From positions 62,001 to 126,000 of the forward strand of contig NZ_JAIUJY010000007.1 in assembly GCF_020166105.1 (NCBI RefSeq): 64,000 nucleotides of DNA, read 5' to 3'. Shown one piece after another: positions 6,976-54,046 of this stretch; positions within the stretch are counted from its first letter, which is position 1; each line of letters opens with the position of its first letter. A program made the position numbers and the translations under genes. The stretch is from Blastococcus sp. LR1. Lineage in GTDB: Bacteria; Actinomycetota; Actinomycetes; Mycobacteriales; Geodermatophilaceae. A model generated the notes under the pieces. The model searched no databases. It saw only the letters and a program-made list of their open reading frames with translations, and was not told the origin of the DNA.

Positions 6976-7749
6976 ATGTCCGACACCGTGACCAGGGAGG
7001 ACGCCGGGGGCGTCGCCACGCTGACCCTGCTGCGGCCGGGGCTGACCCACGCCGCCCGCCACGACCTCCTGGCCGCCGTCCGCGCCGTCGCCGAGGACGA
7101 GTCGGTGCGCGCGGTCGTGCTCACCGGCACCGGCCGCGCCTTCTGCGTCGGGCAGGACCTCGGCGAGCACCTGGCGGAGCTGCAGAGCGGCGTTCCGGCG
7201 CTGGCGGTCGTCGAGGAGGAGTACAACCCGCTGGTGCTGGCACTGGCCGCGCTGCGGGTGCCGGTCGTCGTCGCGATCAACGGCGCCTGCGCGGGTGCGG
7301 GCCTGGGGATCGCCATGGCCGGCGACATCCGAGTGGCGGCCGCCGGGGCGAAGTTCACCACCGCGTTCACCGGCATCGGCCTGTCCAGCGACTCGGCGCT
7401 GGCCGCACGCCTGGTGCACAGCGTGGGTGGCTCACGCGCCGCGGAGCTGCTGCTGTTCCCGGAACCGTTCGTGGCGGAGAAGGCGGCCGAGTGGGGCCTG
7501 GTGCACCGCGTGGTGCCGGCCGAGGAAGTGCTCGGCGAGGCCCGGGCGCTGGCCGAGCGGCTGGCCGCCGGCCCCACCGCGGCGTTCCGGGCGGTGAAGA
7601 CGGTGCTGGCCACGGCGGCGACCGACTCCCTGGAGGAGACGCTGGCGCTCGAGGCCCGGCTGCAGACCGAGGTGGGCCGGAGCGCCGACCACCGGGAAGC
7701 CGTCGACGCGTTCCTCGCGAAGCGGCCGCCGGTCTTCACCGGCCGCTGA
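6976..7749 (+). CDS. Enoyl-CoA hydratase/isomerase family protein
   Basis: 257 residues, the usual length for crotonase-fold enzymes. It shows GRAFCVGQDLGEH, VVAINGACAGAGLGIAMAGDIRVAA (oxyanion-hole region), AFTGIGLSSDSALAARLVHSVGG and GLVHRVVP. The GIGLSSDS segment resembles the PaaG/PaaB phenylacetate-pathway isomerase branch more than a canonical hydratase, but no other paa genes are nearby, so the substrate is not assigned. The start ATG follows GGAGGCGGG by a normal spacing. The frame is open further upstream but without crotonase-like sequence. A strong hairpin terminator follows the stop. Confidence 0.9.
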   Translation: MSDTVTREDAGGVATLTLLRPGLTHAARHDLLAAVRAVAEDESVRAVVLTGTGRAFCVGQDLGEHLAELQSGVPALAVVEEEYNPLVLALAALRVPVVVAINGACAGAGLGIAMAGDIRVAAAGAKFTTAFTGIGLSSDSALAARLVHSVGGSRAAELLLFPEPFVAEKAAEWGLVHRVVPAEEVLGEARALAERLAAGPTAAFRAVKTVLATAATDSLEETLALEARLQTEVGRSADHREAVDAFLAKRPPVFTGR

Positions 7750-40810: not shown

Positions 40811-41392
40811 ATGTTCCTGACGACGGCGCCCGACTCCGCCGGAGCCGATCGGCTCTACGACGACGACAGGCGCGAGCAGGGTTTCGTCATGAACGGATCC
40901 CGGCTGTGGGCGCACTCGCCTGCGCTGCACGACGAGCTGTTCGCGCTGCTGCGGGGTGCCGCGGAGGAGGCCGGACTGGGCACGCGGGAACGAGGGGTGC
41001 TGGTCACCGCCTGCGCGTCGACGCTGGGCGACGCCTACTGCAGCCTGGCGTGGGGAACCAGGCTGGGACAGGTGGCCGGCGACGAGCTGGCGGCCGCGGT
41101 CCTCTCCGGCACCGACAGCGGCCTGGATGCCCGGGAGCAGGCCCTGGCGCGCTGGGCGCGCCTGGTCGCCGCCGATCCGAACGGCACCGACGCCGAGGAC
41201 GTGCAGGCCCTCCGGGACAACGGGTTCGACGAACGGCAGATCCTGGCGATCACCGCGTACACCGCGCTGCGGCTGGCCTTCAGCACGGTGAACGACGCGC
41301 TGGGCGTGCGACCGGAGCCCGAACTCGTGACGGGTGCGCCGGAGGCGGTGCGGGAGGTGGTCACCTGGGGTCGCGTTCCGGAGGGGACCTGA
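40811..41392 (+). CDS. Carboxymuconolactone decarboxylase-family protein (AhpD-like fold)
   Basis: 193 residues. LLRGAAEEAGLGTRERGVLVTACASTLGDAYCSLAWGTRLGQ and DEREQ-like helices (LDAREQALARWARLVAADPNG; GFDERQILAITAYTALRLAFSTVNDALGV) match the CMD/AhpD all-alpha fold. Only one Cys is at the position of the AhpD CxxC, so peroxidase-linked activity is doubtful. It ends 4 bp before the 43-bp att repeat and is the last chromosomal gene left of the element. Confidence 0.85.
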   Translation: MFLTTAPDSAGADRLYDDDRREQGFVMNGSRLWAHSPALHDELFALLRGAAEEAGLGTRERGVLVTACASTLGDAYCSLAWGTRLGQVAGDELAAAVLSGTDSGLDAREQALARWARLVAADPNGTDAEDVQALRDNGFDERQILAITAYTALRLAFSTVNDALGVRPEPELVTGAPEAVREVVTWGRVPEGT

Positions 41393-41396
41393 GTGT

Positions 41397-41439
41397 GTGG
41401 AGACGAGGGGAATCGAACCCCTAACCCCCGCCTTGCAAA
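41397..41439. repeat. Left attachment repeat (displaced tRNA-Ala 3' half)
   Basis: 43 bp identical to 52923-52965. It is the original chromosomal 3' half of tRNA-Ala left behind after insertion. It lacks the 5' half, so it is not a functional tRNA. Divergence begins right after TTGCAAA in the anticodon loop. Confidence 0.95.
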
Positions 41440-41504
41440 ACCGGACGAGGCGTGGTTTGGCGCAGTGGGCTGTGACTGAAAAACCGTTCTGACCAGCGCT
41501 TTTA

Positions 41505-41530
41505 TCGTTGGCCGTTGTCGGGCGTCGTTG
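41505..41530 (+). repeat. 26-bp sequence shared with the relaxase upstream region
   Basis: TCGTTGGCCGTTGTCGGG and following bases match 47542-47567 at 20 of 26 positions, mostly C/T or A/G changes. One copy is at the element left end and one directly upstream of the relaxase start, so a shared protein-binding or processing site is possible. Confidence 0.45.
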
Positions 41531-41547
41531 GCCGATTCTGACCGTTT

Positions 41548-41577
41548 TGCGGACTATCTGCGGACTGTGTGCGGACT
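41548..41577 (+). repeat. Left integrase arm-site iterons (3 x TGCGGACT, 11-bp phase)
   Basis: TGCGGACT at 41548, 41559 and 41570, exactly 11 bp apart and in the same orientation, about 110 bp inside the left repeat. The same octamer with the same 11-bp phase occurs at the other end (52833-52862). The likely role is binding of the integrase N-terminal domain. Confidence 0.75.
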
Positions 41578-41889
41578 CGCCGCCTCGCCCACGGCCACTC
41601 TCGGACGCCCCGCCCCGGGCCCCCGAGCCCGATCGCGGTCCGCAGCGCAGTGAGGGCACCCGCCCCATCCCCCGCGGGAGCCTCTCCGACTGCACCGGCC
41701 GCCGGAAGGGCGCTGCGCGTCCCTGCGGGATGGGCCTACGGCCCACCCTTCCCCCGGCGCGGCACAGTCGGAGGAGAGCTGGTTATGGGGAAGCGGGGTG
41801 CGCAGTGGGCTGATCGCCGACATCTGCCTGTCACGCTCCGCTCCCGGGCGCGCCCACTGCCTCGTGCTTCGACCCACCAGGGACGGGGG

Positions 41890-42456
41890 TCAACGGCCGG
41901 CTGCCGGCGGCGGGTCCTCTGACCAGGATCGGTACAGCTGGTGGATGCCCTCCGACTCCGCCACAACAGTTCGCCACTGGGCGTTCTGCGGCTCCGCGCC
42001 CATCTCGATGCACCACTGCACCGCCGACTCCAAGGTCTGGCGCGGCGTGACGAAGTGACCGTCCGGACGGACGGTGTAGAGGTGAAGATGGGGAAAGGTG
42101 GCGTGGCTCTTGCCGGCCGGATGCCAGTGCATCGCCCAGAGCTTCTCGTTGTCCGGTGACCGGAACTCGTACAGGTAGGCCAAAGTGGTGACCCGCCAGC
42201 GCCCCTGCTGGATGTCGTACTTCTCGGGGTCGGTAGGGATGATCCTGTAGTGCATGGACGCCTGGAACCGGCAGCCGGCCGCGCCACCGCGCAGCACAAG
42301 GCCGTCTCCGCCGTTCAGGCTCCAGACGTGCGTCTTGCCCGTGCCCGCGCGGCCGTCGGGTGAGACGACGACCTTGCCCGTGCCCAGGCAGGCCACGGCA
42401 CGTTCGATGGGCGCCAGGAACGCTTCAACGGCTCGGTACGGCGACGCTCCCGGCAC
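41890..42456 (-). CDS. Unknown protein, TumE/DUF6516-like His motif; candidate toxin
   Basis: 188 residues. The middle reads MHYRIIPTDPEKYD ... RVTTLAYLYEFRSPDN, then LWAMHWHP, then HATFPHLHLYTV and PRQTLESAVQWCI. The spaced His residues with TFPHxH recall the DUF6516/TumE toxin fold (RYDN..HH..TFPHHKH), recognised by eye only. It also contains GRAGTGKT, but no Walker B, so a true P-loop is doubtful. It follows the 70-residue gene by 6 bp, the usual order for antitoxin-toxin operons. GTG start. Family assignment is tentative. Confidence 0.65.
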   Translation of the reverse strand: MPGASPYRAVEAFLAPIERAVACLGTGKVVVSPDGRAGTGKTHVWSLNGGDGLVLRGGAAGCRFQASMHYRIIPTDPEKYDIQQGRWRVTTLAYLYEFRSPDNEKLWAMHWHPAGKSHATFPHLHLYTVRPDGHFVTPRQTLESAVQWCIEMGAEPQNAQWRTVVAESEGIHQLYRSWSEDPPPAAGR

Positions 42457-42462
42457 GAGGCG

Positions 42463-42675
42463 TCAGCGTACGAGAGGCAGTGCCATGAGCACGTCGAGCA
42501 GTCCCGGGTGGACATCGGGGTCGACGTCCTCGAACTTGCCACCGTCGAGGGCCGCGAGGAACTCTTCACCGCTCACGTCCAGGGCGGTGCGGGCGATTCG
42601 GTCGAAAGCTGCGGCGGCTTCCTCCGGGTTGAGCTCGCTGACTTCGACAGACGCACTGCTCTCTGCGATCGACAC
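42463..42675 (-). CDS. Small acidic protein, candidate antitoxin partner
   Basis: 70 residues from the GTG at 42675, 6 nt after GGGAGG. Sequence features: LNPEEAAAAFDRIARTALDVSGEEFLAALDGG and a C-terminal LLDVLMALPLVR. Short actinobacterial proteins with the SGEEFL...GEF...LIP ending are common but uncharacterised. No DNA-binding motif is obvious. It is preceded by three TCCACA iterons at 12-bp spacing and followed closely by the 188-residue gene. Confidence 0.7.
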   Translation of the reverse strand: MSIAESSASVEVSELNPEEAAAAFDRIARTALDVSGEEFLAALDGGKFEDVDPDVHPGLLDVLMALPLVR

Positions 42676-42694
42676 GGTCACCCTCCCTTCTCCG

Positions 42695-42724
42695 TCCACA
42701 GGTCCATCCACAAGTATGTCCACA
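42695..42724 (-). repeat. Three 12-bp iterons (TCCACA) upstream of the small-protein gene
   Basis: TCCACA ends at 42700, 42712 and 42724 (starts 42695, 42707, 42719), exactly 12 bp apart. They lie 20-50 bp upstream of the GTG at 42675, where the promoter should be, so an autoregulatory operator is likely. The units (GTCCACA, ATCCACA, GTCCACA) also resemble DnaA boxes. Confidence 0.65.
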
Positions 42725-42924
42725 CCCACGTGTCTACAGGGTGCCACCGACGGAAACGTCGCGGCGAGCCGAGGCGTATGCGCGTCACACGTTCGGGGCC
42801 CGGCCGTTGCCGACAGGCACCAAGCAGGTCCGGGCGATGAAGCTTCGGCGGACGCTCAGCGCGACCGGCCTTCTTCGGCCTCGACGGGGCCCTGCGCATC
42901 GGCACGATCACCTTCTCTGGCCGG

Positions 42925-43488
42925 TTACAGCCGCACACCCAGGTGCTCGGCCACCAGGCCACGGAGCTCGTCGTAGGAGCTGATCTCCCCCTGCTCGACG
43001 TGGACGACCGTCCCGTCGGCGGATAGGAACACCGAGTGCGGCAGCCCGCGCAGCCCGAGCTCGGCGGCCAGCTCGCCGTCGCCATCGAACGCGCTCGGAA
43101 ACGTGAGCCCCGCGTCCGCCGCGAACGAGGTGCCCTGCTCAACGCCTTCATGGCTGACGACCCCGAGCACGCGCACCTGGTCCGCGGCCGCGTCTGACAG
43201 CTGCTCGAAGAGCGGCAGCTCCGCACGACACGGCGGGCACCAGCTAGCCCACAGGTTGAGGACGGTCGGCACACCCGGCGCCTGCGCCAGGTCCAGGCGG
43301 CCGCCCCCGAGGCAGTCGAAGGAAAGCTTCAGGGCTCCCTCGACAGCCGGCTCACCGCCGGACTGGTCGGGGCACGGCGACAAATCGGTTTCGACTGCGG
43401 GGCCGGCCAACGCTTCGCGGTCACCCTCGGAGCCACAACCGGCCAAGCTCAGCAGCACCGCAGCCGCCAGGACGATGAAGCGGATCAC
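42925..43488 (-). CDS. TlpA-like thioredoxin-fold lipoprotein
   Basis: 187 residues. A lipoprotein signal peptide (MIRFIVLAAAVLLSLAGC; lipidated Cys18) and a TlpA/ResA-like domain: GVPTVLNLWASWCPPCRAELP with redox Cys84/Cys87, VSHEGVEQGTSFAADAGLTFPSAFDG, and the cis-Pro region RGLPHSVFL. Two more cysteines (Cys39 and Cys59) may form a structural disulfide. It probably reduces disulfides outside the membrane. GTG start overlaps the upstream small gene (GTGA). Cargo of the element. Confidence 0.92.
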   Translation of the reverse strand: MIRFIVLAAAVLLSLAGCGSEGDREALAGPAVETDLSPCPDQSGGEPAVEGALKLSFDCLGGGRLDLAQAPGVPTVLNLWASWCPPCRAELPLFEQLSDAAADQVRVLGVVSHEGVEQGTSFAADAGLTFPSAFDGDGELAAELGLRGLPHSVFLSADGTVVHVEQGEISSYDELRGLVAEHLGVRL

Positions 43489-43679
43489 TCGGCGTCCGAG
43501 GCCGTAGCAGTTGCGCCCTCGGGCGCGCAGCCTCCGACGTGAGCGGACACAGTGGCTCCTTGCTTACGGGCGTCGCGGGCGGTGGCGCGGTCACGGTACC
43601 GACAGCCCGGCGTCGCGCGGCCCCGCCGAAGGATGAGCGTCGCCCAATCGAGACGAGTCAAGCCGCCCGGTCCTGTCAT
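43485..43679 (-). CDS. Small basic protein between two overlapping genes
   Basis: 64 residues, Arg/Ala/Gly-rich, with two Cys; no recognisable domain. It starts ATGA over the stop of the 185-residue gene and stops TGA over the GTG of the thioredoxin gene, i.e. 4-bp overlaps on both sides. That exact fit supports real, coupled translation despite low-complexity sequence. It may only serve to couple the flanking genes. Confidence 0.5.
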   Translation of the reverse strand: MTGPGGLTRLDWATLILRRGRATPGCRYRDRATARDARKQGATVSAHVGGCAPEGATATASDAE

Positions 43680-44233
43680 GTGCCGGCAGCAACCCGGGCC
43701 TGTAGGCGAGCGCTGAACTCGACGCCGTAGGGCACCGCCCGGAGTTCCTCGGGCGATGTCTCTATGCCCTGAGCACGCAGAAGGTCAGCGAGCCACGTCC
43801 AGGGGTGATCCTCGCCGGTGGCCTCGGCATCATCTGGGAGGACGGTTGCGCGCACGTCGGCCTCCAGGCTCTCCAGGGTCAGGTGCTGCCAGGGGTCGAC
43901 CTCGGCGCTCAGCCCGGGCCCCCGCTCGGCGCTCAGCGTGAACCCTCGCTCGGCGTGCAGCCGGACGCGACGCCCGTCGGCCAGGACGGCGAACTCCTCG
44001 ACACGGAAGCGGATGGCGCCCGGGGATAACACCGGCACCCCAGGTTGGGGAACGAATGGGGCGAACGTGAACCCGCTGACCGGAACGCCGTGAACGCCCA
44101 TGCCCTCAGGCCCGTCGTCCGCTGCCGCGGCGAGGAGCCGCTGACGAGCCTCCTCCTCGGTCACGAGGTCGCACCACGCGCCCAAGCGAACCACCGGCGA
44201 ATCGATGGTTGGACCGTAGCGCCGACTATGCAC
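43676..44233 (-). CDS. Unknown protein of the element
   Basis: Up to 185 residues from the GTG at 44233; a GTG 23 codons later (VTEEEARQRLLAAAADDG) is an alternative. The middle has regular strands (GAIRFRVEEFAVLADGRRVRLHAERGFTLSAERG) and the C-terminus ends WLADLLRAQGIETSPEELRAVPYGVEFSARL. Not recognised. It overlaps the small gene by 4 bp and so heads the operon ending in the thioredoxin lipoprotein. Confidence 0.7.
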   Translation of the reverse strand: MHSRRYGPTIDSPVVRLGAWCDLVTEEEARQRLLAAAADDGPEGMGVHGVPVSGFTFAPFVPQPGVPVLSPGAIRFRVEEFAVLADGRRVRLHAERGFTLSAERGPGLSAEVDPWQHLTLESLEADVRATVLPDDAEATGEDHPWTWLADLLRAQGIETSPEELRAVPYGVEFSARLQARVAAGT

Positions 44234-44289
44234 GTCCTACCGCCTTCGCGAGTGCCGCAGCTCAAGCAGGGCAACGACAATGCCGCTGC

Positions 44290-45009
44290 TCAACGTGGTA
44301 CTCGTCCGGAGAAGTCCATAGTGCCTACGACAGAGCCGTCGGCGGCGTATCCGGTCAGTACGCCGTCGGACCCAGCCGGATACCACCCGTGCAACCACCC
44401 GCGCGCGAGCACGGTCGGGTAGATCGACCCGTCGGGTAGCCGTAGTTCGCCGCGCACGGCGGTTCCGGCACTCACCCCATAGACGACGTACGGGGTGGTC
44501 CCCAGGATGCCCGTCTCCACCGCGAAGTTGTTCGGGAACCCGCCCGGCCCGCACAGTCCGCCGCTTTGGTCAAAGTCGGCGGGTAATGGTCCGGTAGCGC
44601 TAGCCGCCGTTTCGAACACGGCTGAGGTGCACCAGGCGTAGTCGTTTCCGGGTTCTTCTTCCCATGTCACCACAGTGAAGACCCGTCCGTCGGGGCCAGG
44701 AGCGGTCCCGGCCCGCTGGACAGTTGCAGCAGCGGAATCCGGGTCGGCGGACATTGAGCCCAGCAGGTCAAGGAGTCGTTCTGGTAGGTCCATCGCGGCC
44801 GCAGTCCCGATGCCACCGGCGAGCAGCGCCCCGGACAAGGCAACGGACACGATCCTCCGGCGGTAGCGCCTCGGAAACCGCTGCTCCGTCGGGGAGGCTG
44901 TAGTGGAAGCGGTGATGCGGGTGAGTTCAGCCGCCGACCAGTCCTCGTCCAGCGTAGGAGCCGGGCGAAGCGCCTTGAGGCGGGTGAGCGGATCGGTCGT
45001 CTTGTTCAC
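44290..45009 (-). CDS. Membrane protein coupled to the element ECF sigma factor (anti-sigma-like)
   Basis: 239 residues from the GTG at 45009. Cytoplasmic N-terminus (DPLTRLKALRPAPTLDEDWSAAELTRI), one membrane helix (RIVSVALSGALLAGGIGTAAAM) and an extracytoplasmic domain with single Trp/Cys features (YAWCTSAVFETAAS; SGGLCGPGGFP). Start chosen because AAGGAG lies 6 nt upstream and GTGA overlaps the sigma stop. Same topology and order as the chromosomal pair at 20.98-22.75 kb. Probably modulates the sigma factor. Confidence 0.82.
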   Translation of the reverse strand: MNKTTDPLTRLKALRPAPTLDEDWSAAELTRITASTTASPTEQRFPRRYRRRIVSVALSGALLAGGIGTAAAMDLPERLLDLLGSMSADPDSAAATVQRAGTAPGPDGRVFTVVTWEEEPGNDYAWCTSAVFETAASATGPLPADFDQSGGLCGPGGFPNNFAVETGILGTTPYVVYGVSAGTAVRGELRLPDGSIYPTVLARGWLHGWYPAGSDGVLTGYAADGSVVGTMDFSGRVPR

Positions 45010-45566
45010 GAGGCACTCCTTGGACATGGCGTCTGGATGCGGAGGGAGGCTGGTTCAGGATCGGCGGTCGCCTCCCGCAACCGACGGCGCGCGCGGTGCA
45101 ACCGAACGGCGAAGGTTGGGGCCGAGCAGCCAGCCACGTGCGCGGCTTGCGCGGTGCCCAACCCGTCCCAGGCGACAAGCAGAAGCGCCTCACGCTCGGT
45201 AGCGGTCAGCGCGGCCAACGCTGCCAGCATCGCCTGGCGCTCGACGGCGGGGATCTCTGCTGCGGGGCCGTGCCCGGCGACGTCGGTCAGCCGCTGCAAC
45301 TCACTCTGGAGCATGGCCTGCCGGTACCCCGAGCGACGGTGGTTGGCGAGCGTGTTGCGGGCGACGACGAGCAGCCAGGGCAGCGGCTCGCCTGGGACAT
45401 CTGACAGTCGCCGCCAGGCCACGAGGAACGTCTCCGACACAACCTCGTGCGCAGTCTCCGGGTCGGTGTGCCGCTGCGCGTAGGCCAGCACCCGAGGGGC
45501 GTGCTCCTTCCAGAGCGCGGTGAACCGGCTGGCCTCGGGTTCCGCCGCCGGAACGCTTCTCGTCAC
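45006..45566 (-). CDS. ECF-type RNA polymerase sigma factor of the element
   Basis: 186 residues from the GTG at 45566 (AAGG 7 nt upstream; TTG at 45581 is possible). Region 2: FTALWKEHAPRVLAYAQRH, HEVVSETFLVAWRRLSDVPGEPLPWLLVVARNTLANHRRS. Region 4: LTATEREALLLVAWDGLGTAQAAHVAGCSAPTFAVRLHRARRRL. It probably steers RNA polymerase to element or host promoters. It is coupled to the membrane protein downstream. Confidence 0.9.
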   Translation of the reverse strand: MTRSVPAAEPEASRFTALWKEHAPRVLAYAQRHTDPETAHEVVSETFLVAWRRLSDVPGEPLPWLLVVARNTLANHRRSGYRQAMLQSELQRLTDVAGHGPAAEIPAVERQAMLAALAALTATEREALLLVAWDGLGTAQAAHVAGCSAPTFAVRLHRARRRLREATADPEPASLRIQTPCPRSAS

Positions 45567-45756
45567 TCTCACACCTTGCAATGTCCAGCACCTGGCCGTT
45601 TCTTACGTCCTCAGCCCGTGCCGTCCTGCCAAACCCGCCCGGCCGTTGGTTGCTCCAGCGCTCCCGGTGGCTGCTTTGCGAATCCTTGACGGCCGCCGGC
45701 AGGACACCGAAGCCCCCGACCTGTCCCTCAAGGCGACTTCAGGGCCAGGTCGGCCG

Positions 45757-46560
45757 CTATGTCTGCGACGGTGCCTCCAGGTCGGCGTTACCTCGCACGC
45801 CTCCCGTGAGGAGGTCGCGAAGGGCCTGGGTCTTCCATACGACGCCGAGGTCGGACTCAGGGTTGATGCGGCCGGAGTACACGCCAAGCACGTGTACGAG
45901 GGTGTCGTCGCTGAAGGTGAGACCCGCAGGCGTCCGGTGCCCGCCGGCGGGGGTGCTGTACAAGATCACGGGCGAGCCGGATTGGCCCTTGCGCGTTCTG
46001 CTGTCGACGAGGAAGCACGGGAGGGCGTCGAAGTCGACCTCCGGTTCGCTGGCGATAGTGCCGCGGGACCAGACGGCCATCGAGCCGCTGCCGCGGATGC
46101 CGAATGGAAATCCAACGATGTTCACGTCTTCGGTGATGCCGATCGCTAGTGGCGTCGTCAGGTTGTCGACCGGATACGGGTAGTACGAGAGCTCGCTCGG
46201 ATGGTCCACACGTAGGGCGACCACGTCGACGCGGCGGCGCAGTTGCGGGTGCTCGAACCACCTGGGAGCGCCCTGCTCGTCGAACAGGTCGTATTCGACC
46301 GCTCGCCACTGATGTCGCCCCACTGTTGAGGAGTGGGCGTTGTGCCAGACGACCAGCTTGTCGGGGGTCGCACCGGAGCTGTGCATGGGCTGACCGTTGA
46401 GACGATTCCGTCCCGCGGCGATATGCCAGTTCGTGATGAGCCAGTCCCAGCCGGCCCACTTGACCATGAAGGCCGTGCCCAGCCCAAGCTCCTGTTCGCC
46501 GAGCTTCGCACTGACGAATAGGGACATGACGGACGGCAGGGCGACCACTGGCGGCGTCAT
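45757..46560 (-). CDS. Trypsin-like serine protease (S1 fold)
   Basis: 267 residues from the ATG at 46560; the frame is open 55 codons further. Catalytic triad visible: His in WLITNWHIAAG, Asp in RRRVDVVALRVD, Ser in RTRKGQSGSPVIL. No signal peptide or membrane anchor, so it likely acts in the cytoplasm, unlike secreted S1 proteases. Trypsin-fold domains of this sort occur in bacterial immunity and signalling proteins. No clear ribosome-binding site decides the start. Confidence 0.85.
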   Translation of the reverse strand: MTPPVVALPSVMSLFVSAKLGEQELGLGTAFMVKWAGWDWLITNWHIAAGRNRLNGQPMHSSGATPDKLVVWHNAHSSTVGRHQWRAVEYDLFDEQGAPRWFEHPQLRRRVDVVALRVDHPSELSYYPYPVDNLTTPLAIGITEDVNIVGFPFGIRGSGSMAVWSRGTIASEPEVDFDALPCFLVDSRTRKGQSGSPVILYSTPAGGHRTPAGLTFSDDTLVHVLGVYSGRINPESDLGVVWKTQALRDLLTGGVRGNADLEAPSQT

Positions 46561-46743
46561 GGCTGGGCATCGTCGCACGCGACCTCGGGACTCAGCTCCG
46601 CGATTAGCCGTCTGCGTTCGCACGGGCTGCCCAGTCGTCGACCGCATGACGCGTTTCTGTAGCCCTCCGCGGCCACGATTGCCGTCTCGGTAGGGGGACC
46701 CGTCCGAGAAAGACGCGGGCAGCAAAGCCCCTGCGTGGGCAGG

Positions 46744-46986
46744 CTAGGCCTTCGGGCGTCGGAGCAGGTACTCCTTCATCAGACCGCCCTGCGACGGCGT
46801 GACGGCCGGCGGCCCGAGCAGTTCCCAGCCGTCCGCCGACAGGACGTCGAGGGCGTCCATCTGACGTCGGAGGCTGGCGCTCTCAGGATTCACGGTCTCG
46901 TCGTCTCCGGTCGTCAGGAAGTCGATCTTTCCCGGACGGCCTTCGGTGATGGTGACCAGCAGGGTTCCGTGTTCGTAGTGGGTCAT
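46744..46986 (-). CDS. Small DUF4177-like protein
   Basis: 80 residues. MDALDVLSADGWELLGPPAV and a final MKEYLLRRPK fit the pattern of DUF4177 proteins (LNxLGxEGWELV ... YxLKRP). Function unknown; in other mobile elements such proteins appear beside regulatory or defence genes. ATG start. The protease gene follows after a 180-bp gap. Confidence 0.7.
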   Translation of the reverse strand: MTHYEHGTLLVTITEGRPGKIDFLTTGDDETVNPESASLRRQMDALDVLSADGWELLGPPAVTPSQGGLMKEYLLRRPKA

Positions 46987-47499
46987 GACCCCGAGAGTGG
47001 ACCAGCGCCCGGCCGTTCACCGCAGTGGACGCCCGTCAACACGCCGCAGCGGGCGTGGGTCGCCCCTGGCACCCGCCGTAGGACCGTCACCGCGAACGGT
47101 GACGCCGAGCTCCAGCCGGGTGAGCCCTCGACGGTGTGCCGTAAGGGCAGCCCAGTGACCATTCCCGCAAGGGGGCCACAACCGGCGCACGAGCGGAGTC
47201 CCCGCCACAGCGAGCCCTGGGCAAGGCAGTTCCTTCGTCGGCGCGCCGGCGCCCAGACCACCAAGGCCAACCGAGGTACCAGGAGAGCCCAGGCGGACGG
47301 CGGCTGCGCTGGCAGCCACGCCGCAGCCCCCAGCATCTGTCGCTCAACCTTCTTGACGCGACTCAACCACTCAACGGCTATCAACGCCTCCGATCAACCC
47401 TAACTCCAACACTTCGCACATTGACATACATAGGCCTACTCTGTCGCATTAGAAGCTCTCCCGACAGAACGGCACGCATGCTACCTTCGGAAGTAGCTC
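46987..47499. other. Intergenic region between cargo and relaxase genes
   Basis: More than 500 bp without a supported gene; a 133-codon leftward frame lacks any domain signal. The part near 47400-47500 is unusually A/T-rich for this genome and holds TTGACA (in CATTGACATACATAGG, near 47424) and the palindrome TAGGCCTA. Likely holds the relaxase promoter and possibly the transfer origin. Confidence 0.45.
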
Positions 47500-47520
47500 G
47501 GGCCCCGCTTCGCGGGGCCC
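47500..47520 (+). terminator. Perfect hairpin upstream of the relaxase gene
   Basis: 9-bp stem GGGCCCCGC/GCGGGGCCC with a TTC loop, preceded by a weaker GCTAC...GTAGC hairpin at about 47480. It could be a terminator or attenuator or part of an oriT; position 50 bp before the relaxase start leaves both open. Confidence 0.55.
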
Positions 47521-47541
47521 ATTGGCGTTTCTAGGGGTGAC

Positions 47542-47567
47542 TTGTTGGTCATTGTTGGGTGGCGTTG
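47542..47567 (+). repeat. Copy 2 of the 26-bp sequence at the element left end
   Basis: TTGTTGGTCATTGTTGGGTG and following bases match 41505-41530 at 20 of 26 positions. Ends just before the relaxase ATG (47571). Confidence 0.45.
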
Positions 47568-47570
47568 AGA

Positions 47571-50500
47571 ATGCACGGTGGAATGAAGATCTACGCCGGC
47601 GCGCCGGTGGCTGCCCGGCACTACGTGGAGGCCGACCGCGGCCGGGCCGATGACTACTACCTCACCGAGGGCATCGGCCTCGCCCGCCGCTACACCGCCA
47701 CCGACGGACGGGTGACCGAGCTGGCGCCGCTGACCGGCGACAGCTACGAGACCTGGGTCGCCGGCCGCGACCCCGAGACGGGCGAGCCGCGAGGGCAGCT
47801 GCGCGGCGACGAGCACGCCGTTCGGTTCGCCGAGGTGGTGGTCAACGGCCCGAAGACGTGGTCGCTGGCCGCCGCGCTGCACCCGGACATCAGAACGGCG
47901 TACGAGGCGGCGCAGGACCGCGCCGCCGAGCAGATCATCACCTGGCTGTCCGTCCACGCCACCACACGCGTCGGCCCGCGCGGCGGGCAGGTGCAGGTAC
48001 CGGTGGAGGTGCTGGAGGCGGCGACGGTGCGGCACTACACCTCCCGGGCGAACGACCCGCACTGGCACCTGCACCTGCAGCTGCTCTCCCGGGTGTTCGC
48101 GGCAGGGAAATGGCGCGGGTTGCACACCGTCGGGATTCGCGACTTCCTGGGCGCGATCAACGGGATCGGGCACGCGGCGATGGCGTGTGACCCGGAATTG
48201 AACGCCGCCTTCGCCGCACACGGCTACACCAAGGACGCTACTGGAGAAATACGGGAGCTCGCCGAGTACACGGGGCCGTTCAGCGCGCGGCACGCGCAGA
48301 TCGCCCGGAATGTGGACCGCTACGAACGTGTTTGGGCCGCGGCGCACCCCGGCGAGCATGCCGGGCCGGCGTTGCGCCGGGCCTGGGATGCCCGGGCGTG
48401 GGCCGACGGCCGCCCGGACAAGGTCACTGCCCAGCCCGGGGTCGGGCTGGAGGAACGCTGGCGGGCCGAGCTGTCCGTCCTCGGCTACCGCGACCCGGGT
48501 CGGCCGGTCGCCCTGGCCCCCACCCCGATCGGCGCCCTCGATCGAGACGAACTCGCACAGCGCGCGCTGGCCCGGCTCGCGGCGGCACGGTCGGCGTGGA
48601 ACGCCGCCGACATCCGCGGCGAAGCCGAGCAGCTGATCGCCGCCGCAGGCGTCGTCGCCGACGCAGGCGTGCGCATCGAGCTGGCCGAAGACCTCACCGC
48701 CCGCGCCCTGCAACGCTGCCTGCCGCTGCTGGACCGGGACGGGGTGCCCGAACACATCCGCGCCTGGACCTCCCAGCCGGTCCTCGACGTCGAAGCCGAC
48801 CTGACCACCCGGCTCGCCGCCCGCGCCGCGCGCGGCGTGCCGGACACCTGCCCGGCCCTCCCGGCCGAGCGCGCGGCCGCCGCCGGCCGGCTGGATGCCG
48901 GCCAGGCCGCGGCGGTCGCCGCGCTCACCGGCGACACGCCCCTGGTGGTGGTCGAGGGCGCAGCCGGTGCGGGCAAGACCACCACTCTGGCCGCCACCCA
49001 CCACCTGCTCGAGGCGCAAGGCCGCCGGCTGGTGGTGGTCACCCCCACGCGCAAGGCGGCCACGGTGGCCGCCGCCGAGGTAGGTGCGGCAGCCGGATCA
49101 GCGGCGTCCCTGGCCTTCGCGCACGGCTGGCGGTGGAACGACGAGGGGCGCTGGATTCGGCTCACCGTCGGCGAGGACGACCCGGTGACCGGCGGTGTCT
49201 ATGCCGGGCCGAGCGCGGCCGCGCGGCTACGGCCCGGCGATCTGCTGCTGGTGGACGAGGCCGGCATGCTCGACCAGGACACCGCCCGCGCCCTGCTCAC
49301 CGTCGCCGACGAGTGCGCGGTCCGGGTGGCGCTGCTCGGCGACCGGCACCAGCTGTCCGCGGTCGGCCGCGGCGGTGTCCTGGACCTCGCCATCGGCCAG
49401 GCCGACCCGGCGGCGCACCTGACGCTGGAGGCGGTGCACCGCTTCACCCGCACCGACGAGGAGGGCCGCACCACACCCGACACCGGCTACGCCGAGCTGA
49501 CCCTGGCCATGCGCACCGGCGAGGACCCGGGTGCGGTCTTCGACGCCCTCCTGGCCAGCGGCCAGATCCAGCTGCACCCCGACGCCGCCACGCTGCGCGA
49601 CGTAGTGGCCGCCACCGCCGCCGAGTCTTACGGCGCAGGCCACCGGGTTGCCGTGGTGGTGGACACCCGCGACCAGGCCGCCGAACTCAACACCGCCATC
49701 CGCGAACGGCTGGCCGCGGCCGGCCGCGTCGATGACCGGACAGTGGCCGTCACCGGTGCCGGGGAGAGGATCGGCGCCGGGGACCGGATCGCCACCCGGC
49801 GCAACGACCGCCACCTCGACGTCGCCAACCGCGACTCCTGGGTCGTCACCGCCGTCGGCCGCCGCGGCGGGCTGCTTGTCACTTCTGCTGTCACCCCCGC
49901 CGGATCCGTCGCCGGGAACGGGTCCGGCGGTGTCACCCCAGACGCGGGAGAGGCCCGGGTGCTGCCCGCCGGCTACGTCACCGAGCACGTCGAGCTCGCC
50001 TACGCCACCACCGCCCATGGCGTGCAAGGCGACACCGTCACCGCCGCGCACGTGGTGATCGGCGACCACACCGGCGCGGCATCGGCCTACGTCGGCATGA
50101 CCCGCGGCCGGGAAGCCAACACCGCCCACCTCGTCGCCGCCGACGCAGACGAGGCGCGGGAGCAGTGGCTCGCGGTCTTCGCCCGCGACCGCGCCGACCT
50201 CGGCCCCACCCACGCCGCCCAGCAGGCCGCCGCCGAGGCCGCCCGCTACGCCCCATCCCGCCCACTGGCCGACGTGCTGGCCGAGCTGCGCGCGGCGTGG
50301 ACGGCCGAGCAGCACTGCCTTCAGCGACTCACCTACTGGGAGCCGCAGCGCGAGACGCTGCGCGAGGTGGTCAGGCTCGAAGCTCCCCACGCCGGCGAAC
50401 TGGCCAACCTCCAGGCCGCCTGTGAGCAGACGGCGATCACCGCCGAACAGGCCCGGCAGAAGGCCGCAGCCAGCGGCGCGGCCCTCACCGCCCACGCCGA

Positions 50501-51221
50501 TCGGGTCCGCGACACCCTCCTCGCTCGCTGGGACGGCGAACGCGACGCCGCGCGCGCGGCCGCACGAGTCGTGCTCGACGGCCCAGGCCGGCTCAGACTC
50601 CGGCGAGGCGCGGTCGCGCGGGCCGGCCAAGAGCTCACCGACTGGGCCGACCGGTGGCGGCCACACGTGCCGTCCCTGCCCGCCGACCCGTCCGACCTCG
50701 CGCAGGTGGCCGGCTGGTTCGACGACCGCCCCGCCCTGTGGAGGGCGCTCGACACCTCCGCCCGCCAGGCGGGCGAACAGGCTCACCCAGAACACGCCCA
50801 GCTCTGCGCGGCCGCCGACGCCGCCAGGGACGCGCACGAGCAGGCCCGGCGCACCCTGGCCGAGGCCAGCCGGCGGCGCGAGGAGCGGCTCGACCCGCTC
50901 GGACCCGTCGCCTGGACCCCCGACCCGGCCGGCCGGCTCGCCGACCTCCACCGCGACATCGCCGCCACCCGCCAGGAACTGACCGACGCCCGGACGCGCA
51001 TCGCGACCCTCACCGCCGAGCCAGCTCTCCTCGCCCAGCCGCCCGACCAGCTCGATCGCGAACGCGAGGCCTGGCGCACACGGCGCACGGCCGGCTACGA
51101 CCAGCGCGAATCGGCGCGCCTGCGGCCAACCGCCCCCGTCCCCGGCGTCCCCCGGCCCGAGGAGGAGCGCCTCGGTCCGTCCCTCATCCGGCGTGACACC
51201 GCTCCAGGCGTCGGCCGATGA
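47571..51221 (+). CDS. MobF-type relaxase-helicase (TraA-like)
   Basis: 1216 residues from the ATG at 47571 (GTG 47559 and ATG 47583 are possible). N-terminal relaxase: tyrosines in DDYYLTEG (about 29-30) and metal-binding His155, His166 and His168 in HYTSRANDPHWHLHLQL, with the same 11 and 2 spacing as TrwC. Then an SF1 helicase: Walker A GAAGAGKT (about 463-470), LLLVDEAGMLD, GDRHQLSAVGRGG and a C-terminal YATTAHGVQGDT. The tail is coiled-coil. It nicks oriT and unwinds the transferred strand. No coupling-protein gene is present. Confidence 0.95.
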   Translation: MHGGMKIYAGAPVAARHYVEADRGRADDYYLTEGIGLARRYTATDGRVTELAPLTGDSYETWVAGRDPETGEPRGQLRGDEHAVRFAEVVVNGPKTWSLAAALHPDIRTAYEAAQDRAAEQIITWLSVHATTRVGPRGGQVQVPVEVLEAATVRHYTSRANDPHWHLHLQLLSRVFAAGKWRGLHTVGIRDFLGAINGIGHAAMACDPELNAAFAAHGYTKDATGEIRELAEYTGPFSARHAQIARNVDRYERVWAAAHPGEHAGPALRRAWDARAWADGRPDKVTAQPGVGLEERWRAELSVLGYRDPGRPVALAPTPIGALDRDELAQRALARLAAARSAWNAADIRGEAEQLIAAAGVVADAGVRIELAEDLTARALQRCLPLLDRDGVPEHIRAWTSQPVLDVEADLTTRLAARAARGVPDTCPALPAERAAAAGRLDAGQAAAVAALTGDTPLVVVEGAAGAGKTTTLAATHHLLEAQGRRLVVVTPTRKAATVAAAEVGAAAGSAASLAFAHGWRWNDEGRWIRLTVGEDDPVTGGVYAGPSAAARLRPGDLLLVDEAGMLDQDTARALLTVADECAVRVALLGDRHQLSAVGRGGVLDLAIGQADPAAHLTLEAVHRFTRTDEEGRTTPDTGYAELTLAMRTGEDPGAVFDALLASGQIQLHPDAATLRDVVAATAAESYGAGHRVAVVVDTRDQAAELNTAIRERLAAAGRVDDRTVAVTGAGERIGAGDRIATRRNDRHLDVANRDSWVVTAVGRRGGLLVTSAVTPAGSVAGNGSGGVTPDAGEARVLPAGYVTEHVELAYATTAHGVQGDTVTAAHVVIGDHTGAASAYVGMTRGREANTAHLVAADADEAREQWLAVFARDRADLGPTHAAQQAAAEAARYAPSRPLADVLAELRAAWTAEQHCLQRLTYWEPQRETLREVVRLEAPHAGELANLQAACEQTAITAEQARQKAAASGAALTAHADRVRDTLLARWDGERDAARAAARVVLDGPGRLRLRRGAVARAGQELTDWADRWRPHVPSLPADPSDLAQVAGWFDDRPALWRALDTSARQAGEQAHPEHAQLCAAADAARDAHEQARRTLAEASRRREERLDPLGPVAWTPDPAGRLADLHRDIAATRQELTDARTRIATLTAEPALLAQPPDQLDREREAWRTRRTAGYDQRESARLRPTAPVPGVPRPEEERLGPSLIRRDTAPGVGR

Positions 51222-51383
51222 GTGGAGTGGCCGCCGCCGACGCCGCCGTGGACTTGGACTGCGGAGGCAGGAGAACAACTGGAGGTTTTCGGCAGCATCT
51301 TGCGGTCGGCTGTCAGTACGAGCTCCGAATCGGCGCCTTCTCTGGTGACGGAGCCAGTCCACCCGACCAGACCGGAGCCAGCC

Positions 51384-51608
51384 ATGCCCGACCATCCCGC
51401 CAGCCACGAGCCCGAACTGCTCACCATCACCGAGGCCGCCGAGCTCCTCCGCGCCCCGGTCGCCACCCTGCGGTACTGGCGCCACCTGGGCACCGGCCCC
51501 CGCAGCTTCCGCCTCGGCCGCCGCGTCCTCTACCGCCACGACGACCTCCGCAGCTGGATCGACGCCCAGCACGGCCAGGTCGCCCCTGGCCCACGGAACA
51601 GGCAGTGA
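51384..51608 (+). CDS. xis: Excisionase-like helix-turn-helix protein
   Basis: 74 residues. LLTITEAAELLRAPVATLRYWRHLGTGPRSFRLGRRVLYRHDDLRSWIDAQ is the winged-HTH of the MerR/excisionase family (DUF-type helix_turn_helix_17). The ATG follows GGAG by 7 nt; an earlier GTG-type start at 51222 would add a low-complexity tail. Located between relaxase and integrase, as in actinobacterial integrative elements. It probably bends att DNA to favour excision. Confidence 0.9.
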   Translation: MPDHPASHEPELLTITEAAELLRAPVATLRYWRHLGTGPRSFRLGRRVLYRHDDLRSWIDAQHGQVAPGPRNRQ

Positions 51609-51770
51609 GCTGCCACCACTCGGCGCCCACAGCAATCCACAGAATGCCGGTGCACCCACCGAAGGACAGGCGACCGACGGCAAGCTTGGCTCGGCAGATG
51701 CTCGCGTCAGCGGTAGAACCCCTCGTGCGCACGCCGTGGCCGGGGATCGAGGAGAGGCAGGTGGCCGGCG

Positions 51771-52985
51771 ATGGTGTCGATCGCGAGAAGACCTGACGGT
51801 ACGTACCGGCCGCGGTACCGCGACGAACAAGGCAAGGAGCACGCCCGCCACTTCAAGCGCAAGGTCGACGCCCAGCGGTGGCTCGACGAGGTCACCGCGG
51901 CCGTGCAGACGGGCACCTACGTCGACCCCAAACGGGCCAGGACGACCGTGGGCGAGCTGGCGCCCGTATGGCTCGCCGGGAAGATCAACCTCAAGCCCAC
52001 CAGTCGGGCCCGCTACGCCGACGTCCTCAAGACCCACGTCCTGCCGCGCTGGGGGAACGTCCCGCTGATCCGGGTGACCCACGGCGACGTGCAGGCCTGG
52101 CTGTCCGAGCTGTCCGACCGGAGCTTGGCGGGGGCCTCTGTCCGCAAGGCGCAGGGCGTCCTGTCGGGCGTCCTCGGCCTCGCGGTGCGCGACCGGTGCC
52201 TGGCCGTCAACCCCGCGCTCGGCGTGGCCCTTCCCCCGATGCAGGAGAAGCGCCGCCGGTACCTGACCGCTGAGCAGCTCGACGCGCTCGCTGAGGCCGC
52301 CGGGCCCGGCCGGGTCGCCGTCTTGGTGCTCGGCTACTGCGGACTGCGCTGGTCAGAGCTGGCGGCGCTGAGGGTGCGGCACTTCGACTTGCTGCGGCGG
52401 CGGGTCCTGGTGGAGGAGGCCGTCACCGAGGTCGACGGCTCGCGCCTGGTATGGGGTACGCCCAAGACCCACGGCCGCCGCTCGGTGCCGCTGCCGCGGT
52501 TCCTCGTCGACGAGCTCGCCCGGGCGGTCGTGACCCGCCCTGCCGACGAGCTGGCCTTCCCCTCGCCGCAGGGCGCGGTGCTGCGCAACCGGAACGCCCG
52601 GTCCGCCTGGTTCGACGCCGCGGCCCGGGCCATCGGGGAGCCCGGGCTCACGCCGCACGAACTCCGGCACACCGCGGCCTCGCTGGCGATCAAGGCCGGG
52701 GCCAACGTCAAGGCTGTGCAGCGGATGCTCGGGCACGCCTCGGCGGCCATGACCCTGGACCGCTACGCCGACCTGTTCGACGACGACCTGGACGACGTGG
52801 CCGACCGGCTGGACGCGCTGCGGGCCGCATCCCGCGGACGAGTTGCGGACTTTTTGCGGACTGAGACCCCGTCGGAGGGCTCGCCCGAGCCCCCGACGGA
52901 GGTGAATACGCAGGTCAGACGAGTGGAGACGAGGGGAATCGAACCCCTAACCCCCGCCTTGCAAAGGCGGTGCTCTGCCAATTGA
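51771..52985 (+). CDS. int: Tyrosine recombinase/integrase (C-terminus runs through attR into tRNA-Ala)
   Basis: 404 residues. N-terminal arm-binding domain (1-55: DGTYRPRYRDEQGKEHARHFKRK), SAM-like core-binding domain (about 57-160), catalytic domain with Arg193 (GYCGLRWSEL), Lys232, His296-x-x-Arg299 (HELRH), His322 (MLGHAS) and Tyr332. The last 20 codons read antisense through the 43-bp att core into the tRNA-Ala gene. In the excised circle the frame would leave the core at Gln398 and end 17 codons later. ATG start at 51771. Confidence 0.95.
   Translation: MVSIARRPDGTYRPRYRDEQGKEHARHFKRKVDAQRWLDEVTAAVQTGTYVDPKRARTTVGELAPVWLAGKINLKPTSRARYADVLKTHVLPRWGNVPLIRVTHGDVQAWLSELSDRSLAGASVRKAQGVLSGVLGLAVRDRCLAVNPALGVALPPMQEKRRRYLTAEQLDALAEAAGPGRVAVLVLGYCGLRWSELAALRVRHFDLLRRRVLVEEAVTEVDGSRLVWGTPKTHGRRSVPLPRFLVDELARAVVTRPADELAFPSPQGAVLRNRNARSAWFDAAARAIGEPGLTPHELRHTAASLAIKAGANVKAVQRMLGHASAAMTLDRYADLFDDDLDDVADRLDALRAASRGRVADFLRTETPSEGSPEPPTEVNTQVRRVETRGIEPLTPALQRRCSAN
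52833..52862 (+). repeat. Right integrase arm-site iterons (11-bp phase)
   Basis: CGCGGACG (degenerate) at 52833, TGCGGACT at 52844 and 52855, again 11 bp apart and in the same orientation as the left set. They lie inside the 3' end of the integrase gene, 60 bp from the right att repeat. Confidence 0.7.
52923..52965. repeat. Right attachment repeat (attR core, within tRNA-Ala)
   Basis: 43 bp identical to 41397-41439. It supplies the 3' half of the present tRNA-Ala gene and codes for integrase residues 385-398, plus the first base of codon 399. Confidence 0.95.
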
Positions 52986-52996
52986 GCTACGTCCCC
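52924..52996 (-). tRNA. tRNA-Ala (anticodon TGC), integration target
   Basis: 73 nt on the minus strand. Acceptor GGGGACG/CGTCTCC with one G-T pair, discriminator A at 52924. D arm GCTCAATTGGCAGAGC; anticodon loop TTTGCAA gives TGC; T arm GGGGTTCGATTCCCC. CCA not encoded. The element restored its 3' half, keeping the gene functional. The integrase frame overlaps 62 bp of it in antisense. Confidence 0.96.
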
Positions 52997-53022
52997 CGGA
53001 GTGGCCCCGAGGGGCCGGCCGC

Positions 53023-53163
53023 TCAGCGGGTGGGAGTGCTGACTGCCCCCGGTCCGCTCGTGGCCTCGTGCCAGAGATCGGCCTCGCCCTTGCCGGCCGA
53101 CCGCTTGCGGACGGCGGCGAGAGCCCCGGCCGCGACGGCGGCGAGCGCCAGCTTCTTCAGCAC
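53023..53163 (-). CDS. DLW-39 family small protein
   Basis: 46 residues, GTG start at 53163, 8 nt after GAGGAGG. It begins MLKKLALAAVAAGALAAVRKR (hydrophobic helix with basic flanks) and ends with the diagnostic ADLWHEAT. This family of about 39-46 residues sits between gyrA-DUF3566 and tRNA-Ala in many Actinobacteria; function unknown. Too short to be called by length alone, but motif, ribosome-binding site and position agree. Confidence 0.88.
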   Translation of the reverse strand: MLKKLALAAVAAGALAAVRKRSAGKGEADLWHEATSGPGAVSTPTR

Positions 53164-53246
53164 GTGGAGAACCTCCTCGAGCGCCTCGCCCGCCGCGGAA
53201 CGACGACCGGAGGAACCACGGAGCCGTGGGGCTCCGGGTACACGGG

Positions 53247-53320
53247 TGGGCCTGGGAGGACTTGAACCTCCGGCCTCATCCTTATCAGGGATGCGCTCTA
53301 ACCGCCTGAGCTACAGGCCC
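53247..53320 (-). tRNA. tRNA-Ile (anticodon GAT)
   Basis: 74 nt on the minus strand. Acceptor GGGCCTG/CAGGCCC, discriminator A at 53247. Anticodon arm CATCC-CTGATAA-GGATG gives GAT. D arm GCTCAGGCGGTTAGAGC; T arm GGAGGTTCAAGTCCTCC. Located between DUF3566 and DLW-39, the conserved actinobacterial order after gyrA. Confidence 0.96.
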
Positions 53321-53380
53321 GTGAACCTCGGAAAGCTTACCTGGCCCCCGAACCACACCGAACAGGGGGTGGGGCCTCCC

Positions 53381-54046
53381 TCAGTCGCGCTCGGAGAGCG
53401 TGACCTCGAGCCCGCCGACCAGGTCGGAGCAGAGGTTGTAGATGTAGGTGCCGACGGTGCACAGCGCAGTCAGGAGCACCACGTTGATGGCGCCGATGAT
53501 CGCCGCGCCACCGAACACCACGCCCGGCGTGAGCACCTCGCCCCCGCCGCCGGACTCGGAACCACTGCCGAGCTGGCCGACCAGGCCGTTGATGGTGTCG
53601 AAGACGCCGAGGCCGTTCAGCACCAGGTACAGCAGTCCGACGGCCACCATCCAGATGAAGAACAGCGCGATCGACAGGACCAGCGAGATCTTGAGCGCCG
53701 ACCAGGTGTCGATGTGGCGGAGCTGCAGCCGCGCCCGCCGGGGACCGCGGCCGGCGGACTTCGACGCCGGCCGGGCGGACGTGGAGGTGAGGGCGGGGCC
53801 GCTCCCGGTCGCCGGCCCAGTGGCGGACGGAGCGCCGGCGACGACCGCGTGCCCCTCGCCGGTGACCGGCTGCGGCACGACGGGGACCGCCGGCGCCGAA
53901 CCCGTGGCCGGGCCGACCGCGTGGTGGGCGCCCGTCGTGGGGATGGCCTGCGTGGAGGAGGCCGATGCCTGACCCGCAGGGACAGCCGCGGGTTCCGCCT
54001 CGGCCCGGGAGTCGGTGCGCACCGAACCCTGCGTCCGGTCGCTCAT
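53381..54046 (-). CDS. DUF3566-family membrane protein
   Basis: 221 residues. A disordered Ala/Pro/Thr-rich N-terminus (about 1-105) precedes the DUF3566 domain with two membrane helices (SALKISLVLSIALFFIWMVAVGLLYLVL and AAIIGAINVVLLTALCTVGTYIYNL) and a C-terminal DLVGGLEVTLSERD. Conserved directly after gyrA in Actinobacteria; function unknown. I use the ATG at 54046 (GGGAG 6-7 nt upstream); the ATG at 54073 is an alternative. Confidence 0.92.
   Translation of the reverse strand: MSDRTQGSVRTDSRAEAEPAAVPAGQASASSTQAIPTTGAHHAVGPATGSAPAVPVVPQPVTGEGHAVVAGAPSATGPATGSGPALTSTSARPASKSAGRGPRRARLQLRHIDTWSALKISLVLSIALFFIWMVAVGLLYLVLNGLGVFDTINGLVGQLGSGSESGGGGEVLTPGVVFGGAAIIGAINVVLLTALCTVGTYIYNLCSDLVGGLEVTLSERD

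Follow-up and report, generated by a model that had tools for sequence, protein, structure and literature searches.

The 3′ end of the tyrosine integrase gene (int) of a putative mobilizable element in Blastococcus sp. LR1 likely doubles as the attP site of that element, and the change of the integrase C-terminus upon recombination is then likely a by-product of this arrangement. In the mechanism that we propose, int codons 358–364 would form two arm-type sites and codons 385–398 the core, while a matching arm trio would lie inside the other end of the element; binding of these sites by Int is inferred from sequence. The arms and the tRNA-derived core leave the int frame open by chance, and translation would run on past the core until it meets a stop: within the tRNA gene in the integrated state (404 aa), within the left end of the element in the excised state (415 aa). 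The tail so added would be flexible and under weak constraint, and recombination most likely alters it only incidentally. In lambda-type systems, the choice between integration and excision is set by arm occupancy and Xis, and the same would apply here with an Xis-like protein. The window, meaning the whole 64-kb stretch analyzed, corresponds to C7:62001–126000 of the 4.02-Mb, 10-contig genome.

The element is located between two identical 43-bp cores, neither assigned to a strand, and its excised circle was predicted in silico to comprise 11,526 bp. The right core (52923..52965, int codons 385–398) lies in the intact tRNA-Ala (TGC) gene on the minus strand (52923..52996), the integration target, and the left core (41397..41439), its exact repeat, is a displaced 3′ part of tRNA-Ala. 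The core covers positions 32–74 of tRNA-Ala(TGC), from the anticodon loop to the 3′ end, so one core edge falls in the anticodon loop. Paired exact copies of the core were also found in the same-genus genomes G002 (across two contigs), G003, G007 and G018. In G013 (L056), which is without the element, the two flanks of the window join at one uninterrupted 43-bp core, with 86.5% identity for the left flank through the core and 91.7% for the right flank from the core. These genus copies and the empty site place the 43-bp repeat as an att site beyond chance. When flanks were compared at 11 loci, the core was joined to the right flank in all 11. The left flank aligned over its full length to the core in two loci (L056 and L071) and partly up to the core in two (L058 and L073). 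In L060, L062, L063, L064, L066 and L067, the alignment of the next leftward gene ended at most about 130 bp from the core, and in L061 it was confined to the core region.

The element encodes a MobF (TrwC-type) relaxase/helicase (47559..51221, plus strand; PF08751, E 3.7e-50; NF041492 MobF above cut-off) and a small HTH protein that is excisionase-like and a candidate Xis (51306..51608, plus strand; PF12728, E 2.4e-11; TIGR01764 excise below cut-off). Int, a MobF relaxase and att repeats were thus all present, and none of the 10 element ORFs scanned matched a conjugation pore family in Pfam. The element is a putative integrative mobilizable element of tRNA-Ala in which int and attP form a compact module. 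ORFs in 42925–46725 encode a thioredoxin-like protein, a trypsin-like peptidase and an ECF-like sigma factor, the last putatively labeled from its sigma-70 r2/r4 matches; a 245-aa ORF adjoining the sigma factor gene had no Pfam match. An Rfam search over 41000–54000 found two tRNAs and nothing else.

The integrated int gene (51771..52985, plus strand; ATG at 51771, TGA ending at 52985) encodes 404 aa and matched PF00589 (E 4.9e-22). In a 43-sequence alignment, R193, K232, R299, H322 and Y332 were invariant and H296 nearly so; we take these residues to be the catalytic R-K-H-R-H-Y set, with Y332 as the catalytic tyrosine. The PF00589 match and this alignment together place the complete tyrosine recombinase set in int. 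Residues 4–47, a candidate N-terminal arm-binding domain, form three strands and a helix in the predicted structure. A second integrase, 52% identical, is encoded in the same genome (G000:C4:247510–248601).

An earlier sequence-only reading had proposed that the int frame runs through the core into tRNA-Ala, that in the circle it would instead continue from 41439 to a TGA at 41490–41492, and that excision would replace six residues with 17. Our analysis confirmed the cores, coordinates and residues of the integrated form, which ends LQ-RRCSAN with its stop codon at tRNA-Ala positions 12–14. The circle-state end (41439..41492, plus strand; 17 codons plus TGA, the first base being a core base) was confirmed in silico: the circle form comprises 415 aa, ends LQ-NRTRRGLAQWAVTEKPF and has 398 residues in common with the integrated form. 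Since the two cores are identical, the position of the crossover within the core would make no difference to this end. The replacement of six residues by 17 follows from the sequence and was common to the close relatives examined. The int–core–left-end circle junction itself is a prediction that the tandem remnant L230, described below, supports.

To place these ends in the integrase family, the best 80 of 471 int relatives (L110–L189) were taken, among which the closest named relatives belonged to Blastococcus, Geodermatophilus and Modestobacter. All 11 close relatives (87–97% identity) with an intact int and a called tRNA crossed the core and stopped in tRNA-Ala, with an int/tRNA-Ala overlap of 63–65 bp; this set was drawn up without the broken genes L120, L121 and L132 and without L123, whose 4-kb contig has no intact ORF. 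In a separate int search, read-through was found in five of five close matches, L110, L111 and L113 being three of them. Of 48 more distantly related integrases whose stop lies close to a convergent tRNA, four overlapped the tRNA (L125 and L135 by 42 bp, L141 by 64 bp and L187 by 4 bp) and 44 did not; therefore, read-through is not required across the family. The Ancrocorticia locus L141 (tRNA-Lys) has a core that ends within the ORF, with a predicted tail of eight residues in the circle versus five when integrated. Because this core ends inside the ORF as in the close relatives, the tail swap is predicted in two separate lineages; judged by their ORFs, most family members stop before the tRNA.

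The evidence that the int 3′ end serves as attachment-site DNA came from short direct repeats. The sequence TGCGGACT occurred six times on the plus strand of the 64-kb window and was absent from the minus strand. Two copies, 11 bp apart, form the right arm within int (52844..52862, plus strand, starting at 52844 and 52855; codons 358–364), three copies with the same phasing form the left arm (41548..41577, plus strand, starting at 41548, 41559 and 41570), and the sixth lies within int at 52338. Similar repeats were found at the left ends of relatives. The 11-bp layout is, by sequence, that of arm-type sites, and binding of Int to these arm-type-like repeats would be expected from it.

The layout was then sought in the relatives without an assumed sequence, as any 7-mer recurring without mismatch at a distance of exactly 11 bp in the 150 nt that follow the tyrosine plus 10 codons; five of the 80 loci, having no clear tyrosine motif or too little sequence, were left out. 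Such a repeat was present in 60 of 75 actinobacterial integrases versus 12 of 857 body windows used as controls, and in 48 of 63 integrases below 70% identity. The repeat copies lay wholly within int in 48 of the 75 loci. The 7-mer varied by lineage (TGCGGAC, TGTGGGC, TGCGTAC, GTGCACC and others). The other end could be located in 16 elements, of which 13 have the tail repeat, and in 12 of these 13 the same 7-mer was found 60–160 nt inside that end; the exception was L145, whose tail 7-mers were absent from the other end. The remaining three (L161, L172 and L173) have no exact tail repeat. The protein tail motifs ADxLRT and VGKMWA appeared to be translations of the 11-bp repeat. A related comparison left out seven of the 80 loci.

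At the codon level, the arm pair had a dS of 0.000 in 13 intact integrases versus 0.20–0.29 elsewhere in the gene, and the core and tRNA codons were likewise invariant. Body windows changing as little as the arm codons numbered 48 of 344 in these 13 integrases and 12 of 344 in a set of 11. The intact L118 was left out of the int sets for dS, omega and codon positions, since its start motif differs.

A different reading assigns a function to the exchange itself: the 17-residue circle tail or the six-residue tRNA tail would alter Int activity or specificity and favor one direction of recombination, as in phage Mx8. A state-dependent C-terminus is plausible in kind because the behavior of Mx8 integrase is modified by one, according to the available text of a review (PMC6070905). 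We nevertheless regard this reading as unlikely in the present element, and the circle tails provide most of the evidence on both sides. A left-end search of 112 family genomes plus the named locus L119 yielded 25 usable left ends, of which L240 and L242 retain just the end of the core; L087 and L243, which have no usable core-like site, and the partial matches G078:C64, G086:C67 and G086:C43 lie outside this set. A 17-codon circle tail was predicted from 22 of the 25, which favors a function, but the tail is cut short by a nonsense codon after 13 codons in L233, extended to 23 codons by the loss of one base in L237 and lacks a stop at codon 18 in L242. The TGA of the circle tail also lies within a block of DNA whose following bases are conserved as well, which speaks against the switch.

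With L233, L237 and L242 left out, the omega of the circle tail in the int frame was 0.59 for 22 rows, 21 of them distinct, or 0.55 for a set of 19 with 18 distinct rows. These values were the lowest of the six frames (0.63–1.16 in the other five), as a functional tail would predict; 27 and 26 of 400 column shuffles, respectively, gave values as low. The first 13 codons had an omega of 0.38–0.47 in the left-end rows and 0.34 in an 11-element set. In the same 11 elements, omega was 0.12 for the body, 0.09 for the catalytic region, 0.72 for the linker (365–384) and 0.47 for the circle tail. Omega alone fails to set the tail apart, because 51 of 333 body windows had values as high, whereas the tail dN of 0.136 was reached by none of the 333 body windows of equal length (17 codons). 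Changes at the three codon positions, counted by parsimony, were 34/21/187 in the catalytic region, 33/28/42 in the linker (13 integrases) and 39/35/44 in the circle tail (23 left ends, without L237 and L242), and this near-uniformity in linker and tail argues against a functional tail. The linker was kept open beyond the equal-rates expectation, a point in favor: about 4.5 stops were expected and none seen in 13 integrases (P0 0.011), with 2.45 expected in 11 integrases of equal length (P0 0.087). G+C-biased mutation would lower these expected counts. Owing to the near-even codon-position changes, the high tail dN and the shuffle counts, the signal for a coding role of the tail is weak.

The predicted structure pointed in the same direction. 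AlphaFold2, run on the 43-row alignment, gave a mean pLDDT of 85.6 for int, with values below 50 at residues 361–394 and 396–404. Matches on viral contigs (58 loci) served solely as rows for the fold alignment; the best near-full-length match was 55% identical, and two short ones were 61% (L304) and 80% (L305). The exchanged residues (399 onward) begin 67 positions after Tyr332 within the low-confidence tail, and are predicted to be disordered and outside the catalytic domain. The idea of a state-dependent feedback on activity accordingly found little to sustain it, with the swapped residues so placed and the three codon positions changing near-equally. An effect on protein stability was not supported, no ssrA-like end being found by a simple check for a terminal AA. 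By the same check, a switch by removal of an ssrA-type degron was rejected: none of the 25 circle tails ends in AA, and the integrated form ends CSAN. Since the tail looks unstructured and poorly conserved, its change between the two states is probably incidental rather than regulatory. An extended version of the switch, in which the 415-residue Int of the circle would be biased to integration and the 404-residue form to excision or inactivity in this Geodermatophilaceae element family, making Int a self-reporting recombinase assembled from attP DNA and possibly one instance of a wider actinobacterial design that forms int 3′ ends out of attP arm DNA, seems to us a speculative and rather improbable outcome.

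It had also been proposed that excision frees the int message from antisense overlap with the tRNA. Here, the integrated int mRNA would overlap tRNA-Ala, convergent transcription of tRNA-Ile and tRNA-Ala would lower int expression, and excision would relieve it. As geometry, this release is right because the circle is without the 5′ part of the tRNA, and int and the tRNA pair are indeed convergent; as an effect we consider it very unlikely, since the 43-nt antisense core remains in the int mRNA in either state. A G+C-rich hairpin inside int, between the right arm and the core (52866..52903, no strand assigned; z −3.3 on the plus and −2.6 on the minus strand), would suit antisense control, and nine of 20 tails reached z −2 on at least one strand. 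However, the other 11 fell short on both strands, pairing across 15 aligned tails was 88.8% versus 88.6% in shuffles, covariation was no better than in shuffles, and no T run follows the hairpin. For the same reasons, the hairpin was rejected as a terminator between int and the tRNA. Two terminator-like sites were found in 51100–53500 versus 0.6 expected, one of them at 52832–52848 on the plus strand, overlapping the first arm repeat. No promoters were found in the same interval, a scan that is uninformative in actinobacteria.

Finally, plain unselected read-through with no link to attP and with coincidental arm repeats draws on the probability of 0.32 for 48 stop-free random codons of the same composition, by which the openness of the int frame alone is unremarkable, but it is highly improbable given the exact 11-bp repeat in 60/75 tails versus 12/857 controls and its recurrence at the other end in 12/13 elements.

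The element joins a known kind of integrases with attP inside int. In phages Mx8 and Mx9, attP lies in int, and integration creates a new int 3′ end without inactivating the integrase, with altered specificity for Mx8; these facts are given at review level (PMC6070905, available text). The present int resembles both phages in that the core lies inside the ORF and recombination changes the 3′ end. Unlike in Mx8, only residues past 398 are exchanged here, far beyond the catalytic domain, and the element resembles a mobilizable island in tRNA-Ala. The "suicidal" SSV-type archaeal integrases also have their att site within the gene (PMC8371274, available text), but they are split and inactivated by integration, whereas here 398 of the 404 residues stay together and the catalytic domain is not separated. 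In integration-dependent immunity of mycobacteriophages and Mycobacterium abscessus prophages, a protein whose ORF contains attP has one C terminus in the virus and another in the prophage (PMC8092301, accessible sections). That protein is the repressor, which becomes 20–35 residues shorter after integration and typically loses an ssrA-like tag. Here, by contrast, the protein is the integrase and neither end is tag-like.

The arm layout has precedents as well. According to the accessible sections of PMC3203893, CrimD attP has 11-bp arm-type repeats flanking the core. In Pixie attP, two arm sites stand on one side and three on the other, all in direct orientation, and a sixth site is inverted. 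Our element resembles CrimD in its paired 11-bp repeats and Pixie in its pair plus trio, whereas in the K1 genomes (CrimD and its kin) the core is located 5′ of int and here the arm pair lies within the int 3′ coding end. For tRNA-targeted islands, Islander explicitly admits integrases that reach across attP, their domains sharing sequence with the tDNA fragment, and mentions Mx8 and SSV by name (PMC4383910); the present ORF, which crosses att, is like this exception; the available text of that article contained no analysis of tail conservation or arms. Arm sites inside int were not described in the accessible parts of PMC9513070, PMC3218068, PMC10865867, PMC3516476 and PMC3203893, nor, as far as the open-access text available goes, was an actinobacterial family whose int genes contain arm repeats. 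The repeats suggest that ADxLRT and VGKMWA, C-terminal "motifs" found in many actinobacterial integrases, may be translated DNA-binding sites, which would affect annotation, the way integrases are truncated when integration vectors are designed and how alignments are read. A functional swap would make the element a bacterial island counterpart of Mx8, and its 22 circle tails of 17 codons would then form a natural panel.

A natural circle with free attP was not found among the 25 plasmid records listed out of 141 (top identity 44%) or among the 25 phage records listed out of 1,287 (top identity 41%); two phage records in the 60–80% band lie outside this listing. Junctions of the predicted type were found as chromosomal remnants. 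In L230, the C-terminal part of another integrase (residues 226–400, 79%) runs in frame through the core into a circle-type tail. Int-like in-frame stretches 5′ of the core were also found in L225 (from residue 338, 52%) and L232 (from residue 352, 61%), and marginally in L233 (from residue 374) and L234 (from residue 379, with 331–360 in a different frame). As far as their sequence goes, these remnants show that int–core–left-end junctions form in nature; none contains a whole int.

Signs of tandem insertion were seen in L230, L225, L232 and L119, where left cores of the remnant type are preceded by fragments of other integrases. L119 has a second core at 7051–7093 with 17 further matching bases upstream. 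In G017:C1:15822–18438 (L043), two cores lie about 2.1 kb apart together with fragments of two different integrases, which suggests a decayed mini-element or a tandem.
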